A DNA stretch of 44,365 bases from an uncultured Bacteroidota bacterium (GTDB lineage: Bacteria; Bacteroidota; Bacteroidia; JABEUT01), in assembly GCA_903863935.1 (NCBI GenBank), contig CAIPDV010000039.1, forward strand, positions 1 to 44,365. Reading direction: 5' to 3'. This document shows positions 27 through 33,987 of the stretch, in pieces. Position numbers and translations under genes: made by a program. Positions within the stretch are counted from its first letter, which is position 1. Every line of letters begins with the position of its first letter. Below the pieces are notes generated by a model, which saw only the letters and a program-made list of their open reading frames with translations, had not been told where the DNA came from and did no database searches.

Positions 27-1319
27 TTAACAAGAAACACTATCTAAGCATAAGTACAATTTAGTTTGAAGACATACAGTTCCTGGTTTAAAGTTAATAA
101 CCGGCAAGGTTGTCGTAGTTAAACCAGTTAGTGAATAAGATATACTATTAGTCGTTCCACTTCCCGGGTAAACGTACCCCCAAGTACCGTATGTTCCGTC
201 TAGATTTACCTCTTGTACGTACACATCAGTTAGTTCAACATTTGAGGTACCATGCCAGACAGCGTTATGAGCATAATTAAGTGCATAATTGCTAGGAGTT
301 TGTTCCCAACCAGTGAAAATAATATTGGTTTTCGTACCATCCCAGTAAGGAATTACATTTCGTGCGTATGAAAGGTCACCACCATTCAAATTAAAACTAT
401 TTGCATAAAGCCCGTAACCACAATCATGGTTACTATTACCTTGATCTCTCAAATAGGGTGTAATGGTCCATCCTGAACTAAGGTTATTTAGTAATGTCAT
501 GGTACTATCAATCCTTATCAATAAGGCAAGCCTAGATGGAATGGTAGGAAATGCAACATCATCCATTATAGCCCCTGTACAAAAAACATATCCACAATTA
601 TTTCCCGCTTGGTCAATTATTTCATTAAGTCCGCCATAGTCTCCTCCAGTACCAATTATGGGTTCAGTGAGGGGAGAACCTATATTTTTATAATTAAAAT
701 AGAAATTACCTCCGGTAGTAGGATAAAAAACGTGACGAATTTGAAATCCCGAAGGTCCTTCATCTGCTATATCGATTGCCATTGAACCATTATTATTCGA
801 TGCAACGTAATGATAACCGTTATCACTAGCAGGTCCTTGCATATCTTTGAACTCGTGAATTTCACTAAGTGTTCCGGGACCATTTACGGGGTAGCTGGGG
901 GCAGTTATTGTAGGAAAATTCGTTTCCCACCACAAAACTCCCAAGGGAGAAAATCGCAACACTACCCCTTTATAACAAGCGCAAGTGCCTGGACAGGAGC
1001 AAGCAGCATCCTCTGAATAACCAGATGCAATATAACCGCCATACTGGTCATGAACCTCTGTAATACTATATATCCAATCTTCGCCTTGGGTATTGTCCGC
1101 ACAAGTGTTACTGCAACTGAAGTGATTATTTAATGTGGTCGGGGCTGTATATATCCAATGCAAAACCGGAGGAGGTTGTAATATTGACGTTGCTGCTATT
1201 GCGCCACCATCACCAGAGCCATTGCTTGCTTGTGAATAAACTTTGCCATTCACAATAATAAAAATTAAAAGAAATAAACATTTTACAATCAATCCAGTTC
1301 TGAAATTAAGTGTTTTCAT
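27..1319 (-). CDS. secreted protein of unknown function, cysteine-rich N-terminus
   Basis: I do not recognise a family. The ATG at 1319 is chosen because it opens a clear signal peptide: MKTLNFRTG, a hydrophobic core LIVKCLFLLIFIIVNG, then cleavage near YSQA. The reading frame stays open 15 codons further, to 1364, but that extension has no signal character. The mature protein (430 aa in total) is rich in Gly, Asn, Tyr and Trp. It has two cysteine clusters near the N-terminus (CSNTCADN and CSCPGTCACYKG). Phrases such as GGYIASGYS and GVVLRFSPLGVLWW recall the strands of Bacteroidota secreted beta-propeller proteins. It ends at the window edge without the C-terminal T9SS sorting domain that such proteins usually carry, so it may be truncated or frameshifted. 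It is divergent from the LytTR regulator gene and shares a repeat-bearing intergenic region with it. Export is likely; function is unknown. Confidence 0.7.
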   Translation of the reverse strand: MKTLNFRTGLIVKCLFLLIFIIVNGKVYSQASNGSGDGGAIAATSILQPPPVLHWIYTAPTTLNNHFSCSNTCADNTQGEDWIYSITEVHDQYGGYIASGYSEDAACSCPGTCACYKGVVLRFSPLGVLWWETNFPTITAPSYPVNGPGTLSEIHEFKDMQGPASDNGYHYVASNNNGSMAIDIADEGPSGFQIRHVFYPTTGGNFYFNYKNIGSPLTEPIIGTGGDYGGLNEIIDQAGNNCGYVFCTGAIMDDVAFPTIPSRLALLIRIDSTMTLLNNLSSGWTITPYLRDQGNSNHDCGYGLYANSFNLNGGDLSYARNVIPYWDGTKTNIIFTGWEQTPSNYALNYAHNAVWHGTSNVELTDVYVQEVNLDGTYGTWGYVYPGSGTTNSISYSLTGLTTTTLPVINFKPGTVCLQTKLYLCLDSVSC

Positions 1320-1380
1320 GGGGTATGAAGTATTAAGGTTAAAAAATAAAAATAACTTTAACAATAATACATTACAATTT

Positions 1381-1396: not shown

Positions 1397-1451
1397 TAGG
1401 GAATGAGTCTGTAAAATAGGGTAATGAAATGAGAATTTAGGGTAATGAAAT
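1396..1451. promoter_or_regulatory. three phased direct repeats, candidate LytTR operator
   Basis: Three copies of AGGG(T)AATGA(A/G) begin at 1398, 1418 and 1439. The second and third copies match at 14 of 15 bases (1416-1430 and 1437-1451) with a period of exactly 21 bp. LytTR-family regulators typically bind pairs of about 9-bp direct repeats separated by 12-13 bp, the same period. The repeats lie between the LytTR regulator gene and the divergent secreted-protein gene, so they are the natural target candidate. This assignment is inference. Confidence 0.5.
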
Positions 1452-1561: not shown

Positions 1562-2296
1562 ATGGAAAGAAAACTCAGTTGTGCTATTGTGGATGATGAT
1601 TCAGCGATTCATGCACTAATAAAGGGATTCCTAAGAGGGAGTACTAAAGCAGAAGTAAATTATTGTTTTGAAAAGTGTTCAGAATTTTTAGAACAAATGG
1701 ACAATTTTTCTTTTGACCTTGTTTTACTTGATTGTTTATTTCCTAATGATAGAAAGGATGGTGTTGATGTTGCTATTAAACTTAAGGAAATTGGTAAGCA
1801 CTTCATATTTATTTCTGCAAAACATCGTTCATTTGTGGAAGCTTGTAGGACTGTCGGCGCTTTGGATGCTATGCCAAAGCCATTAACTAAGAAAAGATTT
1901 GTGGAAGGTATTGAGACTGCCTTTAATGTTGTAATTGGAACTAAAGCAAAGCATAAAGTACATGCATTATTTCATGTTAAAGAATTTAAGAATGAAATAA
2001 GCATAAATATTCAGGATATATTATATGTCAGGACAGATTATTCCGACCCGAGAAATAAACTCGTCAGAATGAAAAATAATATCGGTTATACTTTTATACA
2101 TTGCAGTTTTGATGAGTTGCTTGAACTTTCTACTGAATTTGCTATGGCTAATAAATCCGAGATGGTATCTTATGATATTGTTGAAGGCATGAATGGTGAA
2201 TGTGTATTTTTAAAGCAAAGCGAAAATAATAAAATCCCGAAATCAATCCCTCTCAGCCCTATTTACAAAAGCAATTTTAAATATGAATTTCATTAA
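1562..2296 (+). CDS. LytTR-family response regulator (orphan)
   Basis: This is a two-component response regulator of 244 aa. The N-terminal receiver domain (about 1-120) shows the acidic cluster D11-D13, the phosphoacceptor D57 in LVLLDCLF, S85 in FIFISAKH, and K106 in the MPKPL loop, so all the residues of a working receiver are present. The C-terminal part (about 130-230) has the LytTR DNA-binding pattern, with ISINIQDILYVRTD followed by a KLVRMKNN-type strand and a FIHCSFDELLEL stretch. LytTR regulators usually bind paired direct repeats upstream of their targets, and such repeats lie just upstream at 1396-1451. No histidine kinase is encoded nearby, so the signal source is unknown. The gene faces away from the secreted protein at 27-1319 and converges on the small beta-rich protein at 2362-2748. 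Family assignment is firm; targets are inferred. Confidence 0.88.
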   Translation: MERKLSCAIVDDDSAIHALIKGFLRGSTKAEVNYCFEKCSEFLEQMDNFSFDLVLLDCLFPNDRKDGVDVAIKLKEIGKHFIFISAKHRSFVEACRTVGALDAMPKPLTKKRFVEGIETAFNVVIGTKAKHKVHALFHVKEFKNEISINIQDILYVRTDYSDPRNKLVRMKNNIGYTFIHCSFDELLELSTEFAMANKSEMVSYDIVEGMNGECVFLKQSENNKIPKSIPLSPIYKSNFKYEFH

Positions 2297-2361: not shown

Positions 2362-2748
2362 TCAATTACCAAAAGGAGCAGATACTTGCCACCCCTTGTT
2401 ATCACCTGGTGTATTATTGTACCTGAGAAAATACCCAGGAGGCAAAATACATTGGAATATTACAAACCCTGCGACTGGCGGTTGGACTAATATTGAAATA
2501 GTGTTGTCAATCGAATCATTGTTCCAAATTGTAATTTCCTTTATTACAAATGCAGTTGCTGGAGGAAGCGGGCCAGTAATAACTGTTGGGCCTCCAAGGC
2601 TGGTTCCATTAAGATAATCTACACTTGGACCAGCACCAGCAGGTATTGGATTAATGTCCCAACTGCAATACCAGTCAATACTACCTGTTGCAACTGGGGA
2701 GGATGTATTAAATAAAACCGCATTCGGAGCATTAGCAACAACTATCAT
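2362..2748 (-). CDS. small beta-rich protein, paralogue A, phage-particle-like
   Basis: The 128-aa protein has no signal peptide and is rich in Pro, Gly, Ile, Val and Asn. It is a clear paralogue of the protein at 4588-5034: both have a YC(S/T)W motif near residue 30, an I(K/R)EITI(W/S)N motif in the middle, and a 23-residue C-terminal block (98-120 here) identical at 14 of 23 positions, with FQC, L.PG, L.Y, TPG and a closing W. The order, a start like MI-hydrophobic, strand repeats, then L.PG..L.Y....GW, resembles small virion-associated proteins common in tailed phages. That likeness is from memory of the family and was not searched. It has its own -7 box at 2778-2785 and the same 46-bp upstream block as its paralogue. 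It converges on the LytTR regulator gene, with a 65-bp gap. Confidence 0.72.
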   Translation of the reverse strand: MIVVANAPNAVLFNTSSPVATGSIDWYCSWDINPIPAGAGPSVDYLNGTSLGGPTVITGPLPPATAFVIKEITIWNNDSIDNTISILVQPPVAGFVIFQCILPPGYFLRYNNTPGDNKGWQVSAPFGN

Positions 2749-2777
2749 AATTCAAAGTTTTATAGGTTAATAATGTT

Positions 2778-2842
2778 CAAATATAAAAATTAATTCGAAC
2801 CAATAACATTTTGTTGAAAAATATTGTATGTATATTTTGAAT
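2778..2842 (-). promoter_or_regulatory. promoter and conserved upstream block of paralogue A
   Basis: On the minus strand TATATTTG (2785 to 2778) fits the TAnnTTTG -7 box, 29 bp before the ATG at 2748. A 46-bp block at 2797-2842 lies 12 bp upstream of it and matches 5091-5136 at 39 of 46 positions without gaps. The distance from box to block is identical in both copies. The block contains the imperfect palindrome AACAAAATGTT and a TTGG at about the -33 position. Such conservation outside coding sequence points to a shared activator or recent duplication. Confidence 0.6.
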
Positions 2843-2852
2843 AAGAAGTTTC

Positions 2853-2893
2853 TGCATTAAGTTAATGCAAAAGCCCTCACTTTTGAGAGGCTT
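2853..2893 (-). terminator. palindrome plus hairpin terminator after the T9SS propeller gene
   Basis: Two structures lie side by side. The first, at 2853-2869, is a perfect palindrome of TGCATTAA and TTAATGCA around one G. The second, at 2871-2893, is a hairpin with AAGCC paired to GGCTT and CTC paired to GAG; on the minus strand it is followed by TTTTGC. This suits termination of the minus-strand gene ending at 2948. The T tract is short, so strength is uncertain. Confidence 0.45.
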
Positions 2894-2947
2894 ATACTTT
2901 GGAAAGGTTTAATCATTACATCTAATATTCCGATGGGCGTATGAATT

Positions 2948-4591
2948 CTAATTCTCCTTAATTAATTTTCCATTTTCTATTAATTCTCCATTTTCTTTTA
3001 GAATTCGGTAAAAATATATCCCTTGCAGTTGGGCATTCAGGTCAATTTCTGTATTAGTTGAATTTATTTTTGATTTATAAATATTCTCTCCTATAATATT
3101 GTAAACATTAAAAATACATTTTTCATTAATATTTGATAATGATAAAGTAAAAGAGCCTTTATTGGGGTTAGGGAAAACTTTAACATTGCTTTTGTTAGAA
3201 ATTGGAGCTAGAGAGGTTTCTATCCTATTGCATGGCTGCCAACTTGCGAGGAAAAATGTAGTGTCAGAACCTGATATTGAATCATTCCCAAATACACCTT
3301 TGGGATATATATCTCCAGCGGCATAAACATATTTTCCGGATGGGCTAACATTCATACCATCCCCGTCATCTTCGCCGCCTTCTGTGAAGATACTACCACA
3401 TTTTTCATTCCCAGATGAATCAAGTTCCAAAATAACGTCTGCTGTTTGGTATCGATTTATTTTAAATGTATCTGTACCCACCGTTAATTTATAATTAGTG
3501 TATCCTTGTCCATTAAGAAGTAAAAATATATCGTAAAGACTATCAGTAACGATTGAAGAAGCCACCCAACTGCAACTGTTTAAATCTATGGCTTGTTTAA
3601 CCCATCCAACATTACTGTTTGCTTTTATTTTTAAAAAGTAAGGATTATAAACACCCGGTATTGGATTAAGAGTAACCGAGCCTGTAGTAAAAGTTCCTGA
3701 ATTGAATTCGCCACAAATAAATGCATTCCCTATATTATCTGCGGCAATGCAGAATGCATCACTATTACAAGTGCCAATATTAGGTGTCCAAAGCCATTTT
3801 AAATTTCCATTAACATCATATTTGATTGCAAATGCTGTAGAATAAGTTGGAGTTGAAGGCAAAGTGTCAGTTCCAAAAACTAAGTCGCCTCTATAATAGC
3901 CGCAAATAAACACATCTCCTAAAATATCTGAAACAATAGCATAAACTCCATTAGGATATCCATTATTTTGACCTATACCTACCTTACACCATTTATAATT
4001 TCCGTTTTTGTCATACTTGACTAAAAATACACTTTCATAGGATGAAACAAATGTATCTTTTCCAAAGATTAACGGACCTGTAAAATTGCCTCCCACATAA
4101 GCATTCCCGACACTATCAGTTGCAACAGACTCACCCCTTGTACTTCCTGTTCCTCCCGATTCCCTTGCCCATAATACATTTCCACTTGTGTCATATTTTG
4201 AGAGAAACATTTCAGGTGTCCCAGTTGTCATTAAAGTATCATTTCCAAATGCTAAGTTTCCTCTGAATTCACCTGTTATATACTCATATCCAAAATTTTG
4301 AGCAACTGAATGAGAAAAATTACTGGTATTTGTTAAAGAAGGATATTTATCCCACAATAAATTCCCGTTATGGTCATATTTGACAAGTGAGATTCCAGCA
4401 TAATTTCCAGTAAAATAAACATTGCCGGAATCGTCCACAGCTATAATATGTTCCTGATAATTAGGATACGGGTCATTCCATGCAGGTTCTACCTTTACCC
4501 AATTCCAAGATTGTGCATTAATAAGTGCAGGTTGAAGTATCAGAGGAAGTAAAAGAAAGCCTATATTATATAAGCCCCCTTTAGTTATCAT
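2948..4591 (-). CDS. secreted beta-propeller protein with T9SS type A sorting domain
   Basis: The 547-aa protein is exported. It has an N-terminal signal peptide (hydrophobic IGFLLLPLILQPALINAQS) and a C-terminal type A T9SS domain (about 470-547) with VFPNPNKGSF, a FNVYNIIGE strand and a closing LKENGE.IENGKLIKEN. Between them are at least six SBBP-type propeller repeats of the form GN.Y..G.F.G...FG.D......(F)LVKYD.NGN..W. Proteins of this design are carried across the outer membrane by T9SS and either released or anchored through A-LPS. The ATG at 4591 overlaps the stop of the upstream gene as ATGA, so the two are translationally coupled. A hairpin terminator follows at 2853-2893. The ligand of the propeller cannot be told from sequence. 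Secretion route is firm; role is unknown. Confidence 0.88.
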   Translation of the reverse strand: MITKGGLYNIGFLLLPLILQPALINAQSWNWVKVEPAWNDPYPNYQEHIIAVDDSGNVYFTGNYAGISLVKYDHNGNLLWDKYPSLTNTSNFSHSVAQNFGYEYITGEFRGNLAFGNDTLMTTGTPEMFLSKYDTSGNVLWARESGGTGSTRGESVATDSVGNAYVGGNFTGPLIFGKDTFVSSYESVFLVKYDKNGNYKWCKVGIGQNNGYPNGVYAIVSDILGDVFICGYYRGDLVFGTDTLPSTPTYSTAFAIKYDVNGNLKWLWTPNIGTCNSDAFCIAADNIGNAFICGEFNSGTFTTGSVTLNPIPGVYNPYFLKIKANSNVGWVKQAIDLNSCSWVASSIVTDSLYDIFLLLNGQGYTNYKLTVGTDTFKINRYQTADVILELDSSGNEKCGSIFTEGGEDDGDGMNVSPSGKYVYAAGDIYPKGVFGNDSISGSDTTFFLASWQPCNRIETSLAPISNKSNVKVFPNPNKGSFTLSLSNINEKCIFNVYNIIGENIYKSKINSTNTEIDLNAQLQGIYFYRILKENGELIENGKLIKEN

Positions 4592-5034
4592 GATGCTTTT
4601 TGCCCCCTTGCATCAAAAATTGACCATGTGCCATTTATACCGGGTGTAGCATTGTAGCTAAGCGAATCCCCGGGCTGTAACACACATTGAAATAATTGAT
4701 GATATATTCCGGTTGAGGGAACATGAAAATAAATAATAACATTTGCTGTCAAAAGATTTGCAATGGCTCCAACTGGCGGTGGGGCGGGAACTGCTACAGT
4801 ATTAGATATGGTAATCTCTCTAATCTCTATTTCAGTAACACCAGGGGGTATAGTAGCAATAACAATAATAGGACTGGCTGGAGCCCCAGGAATTATTCCC
4901 ACATTTCTAGCAAATGGAACTGGTCCTCCTGTATTATTCCAAGTGCAATAAAATGGCAATGCGGCGGCGGCATAACTAAGTACACTTGTTACTTGAACTA
5001 CAAGTTGATCTGTAGGGGCTGTAAGGGCAATCAT
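4588..5034 (-). CDS. small beta-rich protein, paralogue B, phage-particle-like
   Basis: The 148-aa protein lacks a signal peptide and opens MIALTAPTDQLVV, reminiscent of small phage particle proteins that start MI.LTA.TD.L and end with L.PG..L.Y....W. It is paralogous to the protein at 2362-2748: shared YCTW (29-32), IREITISN, and a C-terminal block (115-137) identical at 14 of 23 positions. It is about 20 residues longer, mainly through an extra Pro/Ala-rich linker in the middle. Its stop overlaps the start of the T9SS propeller gene as ATGA, so a cytosolic-looking protein and an exported one are made from one message. The promoter lies at 5072-5136. Reality of the gene is supported by paralogy and coupling; the phage likeness is from pattern memory and needs a profile search. 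Confidence 0.75.
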   Translation of the reverse strand: MIALTAPTDQLVVQVTSVLSYAAAALPFYCTWNNTGGPVPFARNVGIIPGAPASPIIVIATIPPGVTEIEIREITISNTVAVPAPPPVGAIANLLTANVIIYFHVPSTGIYHQLFQCVLQPGDSLSYNATPGINGTWSIFDARGQKAS

Positions 5035-5071
5035 ACTATTATTGTTTTAAAGGTTATTAATAATAACTGTA

Positions 5072-5136
5072 CAAACATAAGAAAAAACTTGAACCAAAAA
5101 CATTTTGTTGGAAAATATCGTGTGCATTGTTTGAAT
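5072..5136 (-). promoter_or_regulatory. promoter and conserved upstream block of paralogue B operon
   Basis: TATGTTTG on the minus strand (5079 to 5072) fits the TAnnTTTG -7 box, 37 bp before the ATG at 5034. The block 5091-5136 is the counterpart of 2797-2842 (39 of 46 identical), at the same 12-bp distance from the box. It should drive both the small protein and the coupled T9SS propeller gene. Confidence 0.6.
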
Positions 5137-5216
5137 CTAAAAATGCAAAAACTTGTAAGATACAGCGGAACTTGTTTCTTTTTTTCTGCCCAACCATATT
5201 TTACCTTCATTTAATA

Positions 5217-6665
5217 TTATATCACATTCCTTAATTCCGAAAACCCATCCTTTTTGCGGTTTCCGCTATCTTTTGGAAATACCTCAAAATATTTATCAGC
5301 AATAGAATTAAACCTGTTCTTTGACAGGGTTGCTGTTCCATTGTGTACCGCTATTATTGTATCGGCATCATGCAATATTTCATTATCGCCTTTCATTTTT
5401 CCATCCTTTCTTGATTGAGAGATGGTAATAAACGCAGAATTTGGGTAATGTTTTCTAAGTTCCCTAAGTTTTATGGCATCTATCCTGAGTGTATCAAGAC
5501 TATCTATAAATATAAAATGGTATTGATTTGCCGGAACATTCTCCCGTATATCCTCTAAATTTTTTGCATCATGGAAATACAGGTTATTACTGTCGGCTTT
5601 GACAAGTATTACTTTATCCTTTAAGGTTTTGGAATACCCTTCTTCCCCGCTAACATACATTACCCTGCCAAAGTTATCTGCAAGGTAATCGGCTAACTGA
5701 AGGCAAAAGGTAGACTTGCCTCCACCGGGCAAACCATGTACCGCAAAATGAAAAATAACTGCGGGCTGTCCTAAAAAATCTTTCCACCTGTTTTGAAAAT
5801 TCAGGCTCTTATAATCAAGCTTCATTAATTCCTTGCTGCTTATTATCCTACTATTAGTTTCTATTTTACCCTCTGTTTCTCCAAGTATATCTTCATTTTC
5901 TTTTATTTCAAGTTGGGGTTTTTCAATATCTTTTAAAGTTCGGAGATTATCCTTTTCCAATGTTTTTTTCCATTTGGGAAAGGGAAAGGTTGGTTTTAAC
6001 ATTGCTTTATAACGGGATGTTTTACCAAGAACTTCCAAAACTTGTTTCAGGCTTGCTCGATTATGCTCAAGCGCATTTTGGCAGCCTTCCTTAAGCTTCT
6101 TTAGCTCTTTAATCTTGTTTTGCTTTTTGTTTTCAAAATCATCGTTTGATTCAGGTTCATTTTCTTCAAAAAAATCTTTTAACAAGTGCATATCGCTGTT
6201 AGGTTTAAAGTGTGTACTTGCCCGAAAATCCTTCGCATAATTTTTAGTGGATTCCACATTCCTTATTCTTTTATCAATATCAAGAAGGATATACTCTTCT
6301 CGTTTAATTTCGGTCTCTAATGATACCCTGCTATCATTCAATTTTTTATATTCGGGGTTCTCTATCTTAACATCCGTTGGAAGGCAGTCGCTGACTGGCT
6401 TCAACGGATAATTTACTAACGATAATACGGGCGGTTTTACCTCGGCTTTGGCTGTATTATCTATTACCCCTCTCAACCCTTCAAGAGGTGAGCCCTTTTC
6501 AATTTTAGTTTCCTGTTTTGGTTCTTCTTTGGGCTTGCTAATGGCTTTGCTCTCTTTGTGCTTTTCCCAATACCAAGCTTTGCAGGAATTGCTGCAAAAT
6601 TTACTGTCGGCTCGTTTATTTTCGGGTATAGGGTTATTGCAATACAGGCATTTTCTTCTTTCCAT
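5217..6665 (-). CDS. zinc-ribbon plus RadA/RecA-like P-loop ATPase of a mobile element
   Basis: The 482-aa protein has an N-terminal zinc ribbon (C6, C9, C24, C28; CX2C-X14-CX3C), a charged, largely coiled-coil middle (about 100-290), and a C-terminal RecA-fold ATPase. The ATPase has Walker A GLPGGGKST at 311-319, a YVSGEEG stretch (337-343) as in RadA, Walker B FIFIDS ending at D388, and ISQSRKDG followed by HDAD and KNRF (449-452), the order seen in RadA/KaiC-type ATPases. Plasmid and phage relatives act as replicative helicases or replication initiators, so a role in replication of the element is likely but inferred. Short tandem repeats at 6689-6728 lie just upstream. It is separated from the upstream small genes by a terminator at 6744-6770. 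The fusion of a zinc ribbon to this ATPase is unlike chromosomal RadA, which has its own C4 motif and a Lon-like C-terminus that is absent here. Confidence 0.75.
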   Translation of the reverse strand: MERRKCLYCNNPIPENKRADSKFCSNSCKAWYWEKHKESKAISKPKEEPKQETKIEKGSPLEGLRGVIDNTAKAEVKPPVLSLVNYPLKPVSDCLPTDVKIENPEYKKLNDSRVSLETEIKREEYILLDIDKRIRNVESTKNYAKDFRASTHFKPNSDMHLLKDFFEENEPESNDDFENKKQNKIKELKKLKEGCQNALEHNRASLKQVLEVLGKTSRYKAMLKPTFPFPKWKKTLEKDNLRTLKDIEKPQLEIKENEDILGETEGKIETNSRIISSKELMKLDYKSLNFQNRWKDFLGQPAVIFHFAVHGLPGGGKSTFCLQLADYLADNFGRVMYVSGEEGYSKTLKDKVILVKADSNNLYFHDAKNLEDIRENVPANQYHFIFIDSLDTLRIDAIKLRELRKHYPNSAFITISQSRKDGKMKGDNEILHDADTIIAVHNGTATLSKNRFNSIADKYFEVFPKDSGNRKKDGFSELRNVI

Positions 6666-6688
6666 AGTTATAATTTCGTTTACTGGGC

Positions 6689-6728
6689 TATCTGACGTCT
6701 ATCTGACATCTGTATCGTCTCTGACGTC
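6689..6728. repeat. iteron-like 11-bp repeats upstream of the ATPase gene
   Basis: Three near-identical 11-mers, TATCTGACGTC (6689), TATCTGACATC (6700) and TCTCTGACGTC (6718), lie 24-76 bp before the ATPase start. The first two are in perfect tandem, and the last contains the palindrome TGACGTCA at 6722-6729. Repeats in front of a replication-type ATPase suggest an origin or an autoregulatory operator. Which one cannot be decided here. Confidence 0.5.
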
Positions 6729-6743
6729 AAGTTTGTTTGTGCT

Positions 6744-6770
6744 AAAAAAACCTGCCATAAAAATGGCAGG
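6744..6770 (-). terminator. Rho-independent terminator of the small-protein operon
   Basis: On the minus strand CCTGCCAT pairs with ATGGCAGG across a TTTT loop, followed by seven T residues. The stem is 8 bp and perfect. It lies 54 bp past the stop of the acidic small protein and before the ATPase promoter region, so it separates the two transcription units. Confidence 0.8.
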
Positions 6771-6823
6771 TAAAAAAGCGGAGCAGAGTTTTACCCCTGT
6801 CCGCTCATTCATGTTACTTTGCT

Positions 6824-7057
6824 TTAGTCTTCGCTTTCCTCCTCTTCTTCTTCACTTTCCAATCCTTCGCAAAGTTTTTCTAAATGCGCTTCCAACGCAT
6901 CAATTGTTTTACTCTCCTCTTTGTCATAGCTGACCTCCACGACAAGCTCGTTGTCATCAGTCGTTCCTACAATCTCATTGGTGAAACTGTGGTCGGTCAG
7001 CTCATCGCAAAATTCTACCGCCACATCCTGCGGCACCCTGAACTCGGCTTTTCTCAT
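6824..7057 (-). CDS. small acidic protein of the mobile element
   Basis: I do not recognise this 77-aa protein. It opens MRKAEFRVPQDVAVEFCDEL, has a central ELVVEVSYDKEES strand region, and ends in a run of Glu/Asp (EEEEEESED). The strong acidity resembles small DNA-mimic or anti-repressor proteins, but also many unrelated small proteins. It follows the HTH gene by 51 bp on the same strand and precedes a strong terminator, so it is probably co-transcribed with that gene. Confidence 0.55.
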   Translation of the reverse strand: MRKAEFRVPQDVAVEFCDELTDHSFTNEIVGTTDDNELVVEVSYDKEESKTIDALEAHLEKLCEGLESEEEEEESED

Positions 7058-7108: not shown

Positions 7109-7453
7109 TTAAGCTACTTTTGAAAGTATGGGACGGGCTTCCCGGTTGGGGTCTTTTTTCATATTCCTATCTATGAGCAGTTTTATATCGCTCTTTAAAT
7201 AGAATATTTTTTTACCCACTTTGGCAAATGGGAGTTCACCGCTGGTTCTTAAATTCCAGAACCATGTGGCTTTTCGCCCTAATTGCCTTTTGGCTTCTTC
7301 CTCGCTGACATAATCGCCTATGCAATCCTCAGTATTTGCATGGTGACCGTTTTCCAGCAAGGATAGAATCCTGTCCTGTTTTTGTGAAATGGCTTGCAGC
7401 CATTCTTTGGGGATGATAATAAAACCATCCTCCCTTTTTTCATTTGCATCCAT
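7109..7453 (-). CDS. excisionase-like helix-turn-helix protein
   Basis: The 114-aa protein has a C-terminal winged-helix/MerR-like HTH of the excisionase type (about 50-100). The pattern is YVSEEEAKRQLGRKATWFWNLR, then LPFAKVGKKIFYLKSDIKLLI, that is, a recognition helix followed by a G(K/R)(K/R)I.Y...DI wing. Such proteins are common next to integrases in Bacteroidota mobile elements, where they control excision or transfer genes. It is encoded on the same strand as the integrase, with the unknown gene at 7562-8353 in between. The start MDANEKREDGF is the first in-frame ATG. Domain assignment is good; excisionase activity is inferred. Confidence 0.75.
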   Translation of the reverse strand: MDANEKREDGFIIIPKEWLQAISQKQDRILSLLENGHHANTEDCIGDYVSEEEAKRQLGRKATWFWNLRTSGELPFAKVGKKIFYLKSDIKLLIDRNMKKDPNREARPILSKVA

Positions 7454-8400: not shown

Positions 8401-9651
8401 TCAGGCGGCATTTCCTTTAATAGAAATCTTATCCTCTATTTTCTCTGCCATCTTCTGCATATAGCTGTTGGTGATTTTGGCGTATATCTGAGTGGTCTTA
8501 ATATTCGTATGCCCAAGCCATTTGCTGACTACTTCCATAGGAATCTCATTACTTAACAGGATAGTAGTGGCGCAGGTGTGCCTCGCTACGTGGTGTGTAA
8601 GGTTTTTCTTAGTGCCTGTGAGGTCTGCAATCACTTTCAGGTAAGCATTCAGCTTTTGATTGGTAATTCTTGGCAATACCCTGTGTTGAGCCTTTCTTTC
8701 ATCTGAATCCTCATATTTATGGATTATATCTACAGCAGGTTTGAATATAGGAATTGATAAGGGTTCGCTGGTCTTTTCCTGTGCTATGGTCAGGGAATAG
8801 TTTCCGTTCTTATCTTGCGCTATTTTGTCAATGGTGAGTTGCTGTGCATCTTCAAACCGAAGCCCGGTATAAACCGAGAAAATAAATATATCCCGTACCC
8901 TTTTTAAACTCTCGTTTTCACCCAAAGGGTGGTTAATTATTACCTTTAATTCATCCTCTGTAAGAAAGGTTCTGTTTGAAGGGGTGTTCTTTAATTTAAA
9001 GTCTATGTAAGGGTTTTTAATGATATGCCCTTCTCTTATTGCACGGATAAGTATCGTCCTTACCCTGCTATGGTGCTTGTTGGCTGTATTTCTCCCCATC
9101 TTTTTTGTATCGTGATTTACCAGTTGGTTTAACAGGTACAAATCCAAATCGCTTAAAAATTTGTAATCAATATGGGCAAGTAAAATATCTTTTAGCTTTC
9201 TCTCCAGTAAAAAACCGATAAGGTGGGTTTTAGTTTCCTTGTACCTTGTAACAGTAACCTTTTCCACTTCCCCAGCTTTTTCTAGGCGTTCCATGTGCCT
9301 GTCGTAAGATTCAAGCAGGTAAGCATCCACTTTATCTTTTCCTGTCAGAAAGGTTTTAATAGCGTGGGCTGTAACGGGCTTATTTGCCTTTTCCAAGCTA
9401 TTGGCAATGTCATGGACTTGCTGCTCGGTGGAGGAGAGGTCTTCGTTTATTTGCCGGTTTTTCTTGGTGCGTTGCAGGGATTCATCCCACTCTTTAGGCT
9501 GTAAAAAGTAATTGGTTGCTATCTCTGCCTTTTTGCGGTCAACGGTAATGCGGAGGTAAATAGGGTACTTTTTGGCTTTTTCCTTCTCTTCTGGCGTACC
9601 CTTTGCCTTGTATTCATTGAGGTAGTAGCGAATTGTTAATGAGTTCAACAT
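8401..9651 (-). CDS. tyrosine recombinase/integrase with Arm DNA-binding domain
   Basis: The 416-aa integrase has the three-part layout usual in Bacteroidota. An N-terminal Arm-type domain (about 1-70, with YPIYLRITVDRKKAEI and LQPKEWD) is followed by a SAM-like core-binding domain (about 105-215) and the catalytic domain (about 230-400). The catalytic residues are visible: R in YTGLRFEDAQQL, H354-x-x-R357, H381 in WLGHT, and the nucleophile Y390 in TTQIYAKI. It cuts and rejoins DNA at att sites and should integrate or excise the element. It is the gene nearest to the 3' end of tRNA-Ser(CGA), a classic integration target. Its promoter (TATCTTTG, 9698 to 9691) is embedded in three GGTGAAAC repeats at 9653-9723, which suggests autoregulation. 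All motifs are intact, so the enzyme is probably active. Confidence 0.93.
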   Translation of the reverse strand: MLNSLTIRYYLNEYKAKGTPEEKEKAKKYPIYLRITVDRKKAEIATNYFLQPKEWDESLQRTKKNRQINEDLSSTEQQVHDIANSLEKANKPVTAHAIKTFLTGKDKVDAYLLESYDRHMERLEKAGEVEKVTVTRYKETKTHLIGFLLERKLKDILLAHIDYKFLSDLDLYLLNQLVNHDTKKMGRNTANKHHSRVRTILIRAIREGHIIKNPYIDFKLKNTPSNRTFLTEDELKVIINHPLGENESLKRVRDIFIFSVYTGLRFEDAQQLTIDKIAQDKNGNYSLTIAQEKTSEPLSIPIFKPAVDIIHKYEDSDERKAQHRVLPRITNQKLNAYLKVIADLTGTKKNLTHHVARHTCATTILLSNEIPMEVVSKWLGHTNIKTTQIYAKITNSYMQKMAEKIEDKISIKGNAA

Positions 9652-9769: not shown

Positions 9770-9789
9770 TGCATCATGTTTCAATGTTG

Positions 9790-9876
9790 CGGAGAGAGAG
9801 GGATTCGAACCCTCGGTACCCGTGAAGGTACAGCAGTTTTCGAGACTGTCGCATTCGACCACTCTGCCATCTCTCC
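9790..9876 (-). tRNA. tRNA-Ser (anticodon CGA)
   Basis: The 87-nt cloverleaf is read on the minus strand. The acceptor is GGAGAGA/TCTCTCC with discriminator G. The anticodon loop CTCGAAA gives anticodon CGA (codon UCG), the variable arm is long as expected for a class II tRNA, and the T loop is GGTTCGAATCC. CCA is not encoded. The integrase gene lies 139 bp from its 3' end, so this tRNA is the likely attachment site of the element to the left. Confidence 0.95.
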
Positions 9877-33612: not shown

Positions 33613-33987
33613 ATGCCATTTAAAAAAGGACAAAGTGGTAATCCCGTCGGAAGAGTAAAAGGAAATAATTACAAAATTAATGCCGAGCAGCGTGATTTTT
33701 TAAGAGATCAATTGCGCAAGCATAAACGGAAATTTGAACTTTTATTGGGAAAAATGGAGTGCAATGATTTCATGAATCATTACTTTACACTTATGCAATA
33801 TGTGCTTCCGAAACCGGCTACAGCAGTGTTAAAAGAAGTTCCCAAACTGGAGGAGTTTATTGCCATGACAGGAGAAGAACGTCAAGCTGTTGTTGATGAA
33901 GTGCAAGAATCGTTGAATAAAGAACAGAGTGAAGAGATCATTAAGAATGATAATGAAGAGAGGAAGTGGAATCGCTATTGTGGATAG
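33613..33987 (+). CDS. DUF5681-type protein
   Basis: The 124-aa protein opens MPFKKGQSGNPVGRVKGN, the DUF5681 signature seen in many phage- and mobile-element-linked small proteins. A basic helical middle follows (QRDFLRDQLRKHKRKFELLLGKM), then a Glu-rich C-terminus (EERQAVVDEVQESLNKEQSEEI). The function is not known; a DNA-binding or terminase-small-subunit-like role is often guessed. It stands alone here, with no phage genes beside it, and is preceded by phased ATTGC repeats. Confidence 0.82.
   Translation: MPFKKGQSGNPVGRVKGNNYKINAEQRDFLRDQLRKHKRKFELLLGKMECNDFMNHYFTLMQYVLPKPATAVLKEVPKLEEFIAMTGEERQAVVDEVQESLNKEQSEEIIKNDNEERKWNRYCG

Follow-up and report, generated by a model that had tools for sequence, protein, structure and literature searches.

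The DNA analyzed here, referred to as the window, is a stretch of 44,365 nucleotides from an uncultured Bacteroidota bacterium (genome G000; contig CAIPDV010000039.1, positions 1 to 44,365). It carries two genes for small proteins on the reverse strand, P1 (2362..2748, 128 aa) and P2 (4588..5034, 148 aa), and a third genomic copy, P3, lies on contig C36 (L010:8387-8782). The initial annotation of the window had described the open reading frames at 2362-2748 and 4588-5034 as paralogs, and BLASTP bears this out (28% identity over 125 columns, E 2e-11); P3 is 50-56% identical to P1. As had also been proposed, P1 and P2 lack signal peptides, with no Lys or Arg among their first residues and low hydropathy. 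The reading frames of P1-P3 are intact, and dN/dS between the paralogs is ~0.2-0.5, a rough estimate owing to saturation, which argues that all three are kept under purifying selection. The start of a gene for a 547-aa secreted beta-propeller (SBBP) protein (2948..4591, reverse strand) overlaps the stop of P2 in an ATGA at 4591-4588; this protein combines a signal-peptide-like N-terminus with a T9SS sorting domain (PF18962, Por_Secre_tail, E 1.3e-9), as expected of T9SS cargo. Similarly, another T9SS protein gene lies 24 bp downstream of P3.

Both window genes are preceded by a 46-bp promoter block on the reverse strand, at 2797..2842 for P1 (core CAACAAAATGTTATTGG on that strand) and at 5091..5136 for P2. 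Recomputed, the two blocks agree at 39 of 46 positions, the value first reported, and the upstream similarity of P1 and P2 reaches beyond them (72% over 102 bp, ungapped). The blocks lie upstream of -7 boxes TATATTTG (2785-2778) and TATGTTTG (5079-5072) at the same distance in both copies, as had been noticed, although this distance is 11 bp and not the 12 bp originally given. A 29-mer from the block, searched with up to three mismatches, has three matches in the genome of 3.76 Mb (none for a reversed-pattern control), the third of which is in front of P3. Because all three genomic sites precede genes of the P1-P3 family, and are not the random sites that would have spoken against the original proposal, the block is specific to this family within G000 and no chance repeat; it was not found in IMG/VR. 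A common activator plausibly holds the block. A TTATTAA-type 5′ leader (2749-2800 and 5035-5080 in the window) is common to P1-P3 and to four of six fibre operons of sister species described below, and is found in only 3 of 34 window genes.

Neither P1 nor P2 matches a family in Pfam, PHROGs or NCBIfam, and initial searches of phages, plasmids, IMG/VR and GTDB contigs with one small protein or with the first alignment returned no match. These empty searches had led to a reading of P1-P3 as an orphan family, which was overturned by a distant profile route through sister species. A profile of the three sequences recovers relatives in two sister species of the genus, one (G010) with a collagen-like tail and situated among phage-like genes, the other (G008) forming the N-terminal part of a tail-fibre-like protein of 425 aa, encoded in a prophage along with connector and endolysin genes. 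The same domain occurs in IMG/VR at 35 environmental phage loci, nearly always as the N-terminus of long fibre-like proteins, and in some of these it is followed by a glycine-rich domain within one protein. Among 395 genomes of the class the domain is found in only four members of this genus, and a sample of the phylum adds a single further prophage with it, an apparently Mu-like one in another member of the phylum (G436). Against PDB sequences, a phage-rich profile found nothing at E 0.1; the PDB profile matches were antibody chains only, with weak E-values, and were judged compositional, and weak matches in two further genomes (G231 and G004) were dropped as they are located in unrelated genes.

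An HMM built exclusively from 30 phage domains of the tail-fibre N-terminal type, run against 2476 targets including shuffled sequences, recovers P3 (E 3e-8), P1 (E 2.6e-5) and P2 (E 2.3e-4, the weakest and, at 18 bits, a modest match), while shuffled P1-P3 start at E 2.1. On this profile evidence, P1-P3 are therefore stand-alone relatives of the tail-fibre N-terminal domain. The phage members run on past the domain, most of them for 100-850 aa, whereas P1-P3 stop after it. The original impression that P1 and P2 resemble small virion-associated proteins thus stands with respect to phage kinship, but they are not decoration proteins as such, their relatives being fibre N-terminal domains. It had also been pointed out that head, tail and terminase genes are absent around P1 and P2, and indeed no head, tail, terminase or lysis genes were recognized among the open reading frames near P1-P3, in the window or on C36.

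The surroundings of P1 and P2 have features of a mobile island. Upstream of P2, and likewise on the reverse strand, lie an AAA+ ATPase gene (5217..6665; phrog_6891, RadA-like P-loop), which is probably an island gene, a gene for an HTH_17 excisionase-like protein (7109..7453), and a tyrosine integrase gene (8401..9651; Arm-DNA-bind_5, SAM_5, Phage_integrase). The integrase adjoins a tRNA-Ser(CGA) gene (9789..9876, reverse strand), the probable integration site, and no duplicated tRNA-Ser 3′ end was found within the window, whose contig starts at base 1. P3 is also near an integrase gene, so that P1-P3 are all on or beside integrase-bearing islands. A large serine recombinase gene near P3 (L010:3045-4709) adjoins a gene for an SprB and glycine-rich protein (5127-6941). 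Elsewhere in the window, an orphan 124-aa open reading frame (33613-33987, start MPFKKGQSGNPVGR) gives the impression, from its sequence, of coding for a phage- or mobile-element-associated protein.

Convergent with P1, and 65 bp from it, is a forward-strand gene for a response regulator with a LytTR-like C-terminal domain (1562..2296). Its receiver domain is recognized at E 9e-12; the LytTR domain is not called by Pfam, and two relatives of the protein match PF04397 (LytTR) with E-values of 7e-4 and 1.6e-3 that fall short of the curated cut-off. The protein is homologous (E 7.8e-11) to the regulator found upstream of fibre-domain genes in the sister species G007, and no other G000 protein is. 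Divergent from the regulator is a gene for a secreted protein of 430-445 aa (27..1364, reverse strand), and within the divergent promoter of the two are three TAGGG(T)AATGA direct repeats (1397..1448, forward strand; starts at 1397, 1417, and 1438) with a spacing of 20/21 bp and LytTR-type site geometry, the nearest of them ~78 bp before the likely ATG of the secreted gene at 1319. In the literature, most LytTR sites consist of 9-bp repeats separated by 11-13 bp (PMC6193735, PMC4847170). The double-repeat pattern has no other site in the genome at up to three mismatches, and from this arrangement the regulator may control both itself and the secreted gene. Adjoining the triple repeat in this promoter is a perfect CRP/FNR-type palindrome (TGTGA-N6-TCACA) at 1381-1396, TGTGATACAAATCACA. 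Direct repeats of 21 bp were looked for in the blocks of P1-P3 and in the P1 and P2 promoters and are absent there, for which reason a LytTR-type reading of the block was rejected; as the repeats of the window's regulator sit at another promoter and none lies in the block, a link between this candidate activator and the block is unsupported. No regulator is adjacent to P3.

The comparison of sister-species operons beside the same regulator family draws on draft genomes with broken contigs and on a single genus. At two loci in G007, the domain is present in tandem directly downstream of a LytTR-like regulator, in three copies at one locus and two at the other; next comes a secreted glycine-rich protein, in which SprB repeats are seen wherever the contig extends far enough. 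The two loci share 93% identity across the regulator and its promoter DNA, compared with 38-54% identity among the small proteins; this pattern of a conserved control part (L017:2090-2700 and L026:800-1415) and strongly diverged small proteins downstream suggests that the control part has undergone a recent duplication or gene conversion. In G008 (contig C1, L082:2250-10536), a run of genes in one direction comprises a LytTR-like regulator, two virion-like proteins of a family that we call B, a fibre-tip homolog, a cysteine-rich precursor-like protein, LanC, and LanB. Compared with their prophage counterparts, the family-B proteins of this operon are 39% identical and the fibre-tip homolog 33%. 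Family B was not found in IMG/VR or in the phage records searched, so the evidence for its being a phage family comes from the two prophages of this genus.

In three further cases (G002, G005, and contig C74 of G007), the regulator family precedes large secreted S74-type fibres. Peptidase_S74 domains are known from phage tailspikes. At L087:9441-12773, L088:5971-9767, and L089:413-7974, LytTR-like regulators and three 21-bp repeats are followed by very large secreted proteins of the repeat-head/Peptidase_S74 type. In each of the six sister-species operons, the first gene is preceded by three direct repeats with a 21-bp lag (shuffle P 0 to 0.018). Regulator orthologs in G006, G010, G003, G001, G009, and contig C50 of G002 have no fibre-like genes beside them; the link between the regulator family and fibre genes is thus frequent, not universal.

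Collectively, these data suggest that a regulated bacterial system has taken up parts of viral origin. That P1-P3 are relatives of the phage fibre domain and have been recruited is, in our judgment, highly probable. The N-terminal domain of phage fibres, by its position the virion-attached end, would have given rise to stand-alone bacterial proteins behind a dedicated promoter block, and across the wider genus set phage-fibre-like operons, often beside one LytTR-type regulator family, would be coupled to T9SS surface proteins, with one fibre-like operon of the genus coupled to a lanthipeptide cluster. Given their lack of signal peptides, P1-P3 would stay and act in the cytosol. There, fibre-base domains on their own could take up the fibre attachment sites of infecting or induced phages, and the resulting particles would not be infectious. 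A set of diversified tandem copies would be suited to more than one phage, and the co-expressed secreted proteins would act outside, at the cell surface. We lean toward this account as a whole, in which recruited fibre domains are regulated and serve as cytosolic decoys, while the decoy mechanism taken alone is a tentative proposal that is rather unlikely to be correct. The missing ASTQRQ sequence in P1-P3, the block that is not of LytTR type, the copy P3 with no adjacent regulator, and the several regulator orthologs that lack neighboring fibre-like genes all speak against the account.

The decoy idea also leaves unexplained why phage-like and secreted proteins share operons. This coupling is explained better if the small proteins serve as the base, or in the assembly, of cell-surface fibres made from the co-expressed T9SS, S74, and glycine-rich/SprB proteins, a host apparatus for adhesion or gliding derived from phage fibre modules and placed under LytTR control. 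The fusion of the phage version to a glycine-rich domain is consistent with such fibres, as are the secreted glycine-rich protein that follows the G007 copies and the S74 fibres beside the same regulators. With no signal peptide or sorting domain, however, the small proteins have no known route to the surface, and we regard a role in surface fibres as possible but on present evidence unlikely. We consider doubtful a genus-level LytTR-linked system that joins diversified, stand-alone cytosolic fibre-base proteins to T9SS surface fibres, acting either as an anti-phage decoy and shield or as a new host-built fibre apparatus.

Other explanations look to mobile elements, to antagonism, or to decay. 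P1 and P2 may be cargo of a phage satellite or island, namely fibre-base parts supplied to, or redirecting, the particles of a helper phage: tRNA-Ser, integrase, excisionase-like, and ATPase genes adjoin them, and an integrase adjoins P3, but packaging and capsid genes are absent, a search of the window found no duplicated att site, and the modules of G007 and G008 showed no neighboring integrase, which makes such cargo improbable. It is similarly quite improbable that the phage-like proteins belong to a killing complex induced by density or stress, in the manner of a bacteriocin. LytTR regulators do control bacteriocin genes elsewhere (PMC6193735), and in G008 a single run of genes unites LanB, LanC, and the cysteine-rich precursor-like gene with a LytTR regulator and fibre-like genes; yet lanthipeptide genes occur in one module only, and the lack of an export route for the small proteins weighs against this role as well. 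Lastly, the true phage homologs in prophages of the same genus favor a reading of P1-P3 as functionless remnants of decayed prophages, but the intact frames of P1-P3, dN/dS below 1, and private promoter block at three copies, together with the lack of other structural phage genes and the repeated association with one regulator family, render decay very unlikely.

If recruitment is correct, phage fibre parts have entered bacterial operons more than once in a single genus, where fibre base, family B, fibre tip, and S74 fibres, which are separate virion families, occur beside the same regulator family. It would then become testable whether bacteria spoil phage assembly with isolated virion-attachment domains or assemble surface fibres out of phage modules. 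The regulator and its candidate target sites offer material to start from, as does the minimal operon of two genes formed by P2 and its secreted partner.

No published description of such a system was found in open-licence papers, and several known systems share part of its features. The nearest in sequence is the phage tail-fibre N-terminal domain itself (APAASTQRQ motif; IMG/VR L033-L067), which P1-P3 resemble in length (~110-125 aa), in the MI-L start, and in conserved positions up to the L..G..L.Y....GW.V end. They differ in having a TAFVIKEI-type sequence where ASTQRQ is conserved in phages, in being whole proteins that lack the C-terminal fibre part, and in lying outside phage structural gene clusters. 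Tailocins and extracellular contractile injection systems are likewise cases in which a host keeps phage tail parts, whereas here only fibre-related parts are kept, and genes for sheath, tube, baseplate, or other components of a particle are missing from their surroundings. SprB-type and other T9SS adhesins match the coupled secreted proteins, which have SprB repeats and CHU_C or Por_Secre_tail sorting domains; what sets the present operons apart is the inclusion of phage-like small proteins that lack a signal peptide, an arrangement for which we found no published account. With the LytTR Regulatory Systems (PMC6193735), finally, these loci share the regulator domain family, as judged from the sub-cut-off PF04397 matches of two relatives, and direct repeats with a 21-bp period upstream of the promoter, but the repeats number two in those systems and three here, and the neighbors of the regulators here are phage-fibre-like and T9SS genes.
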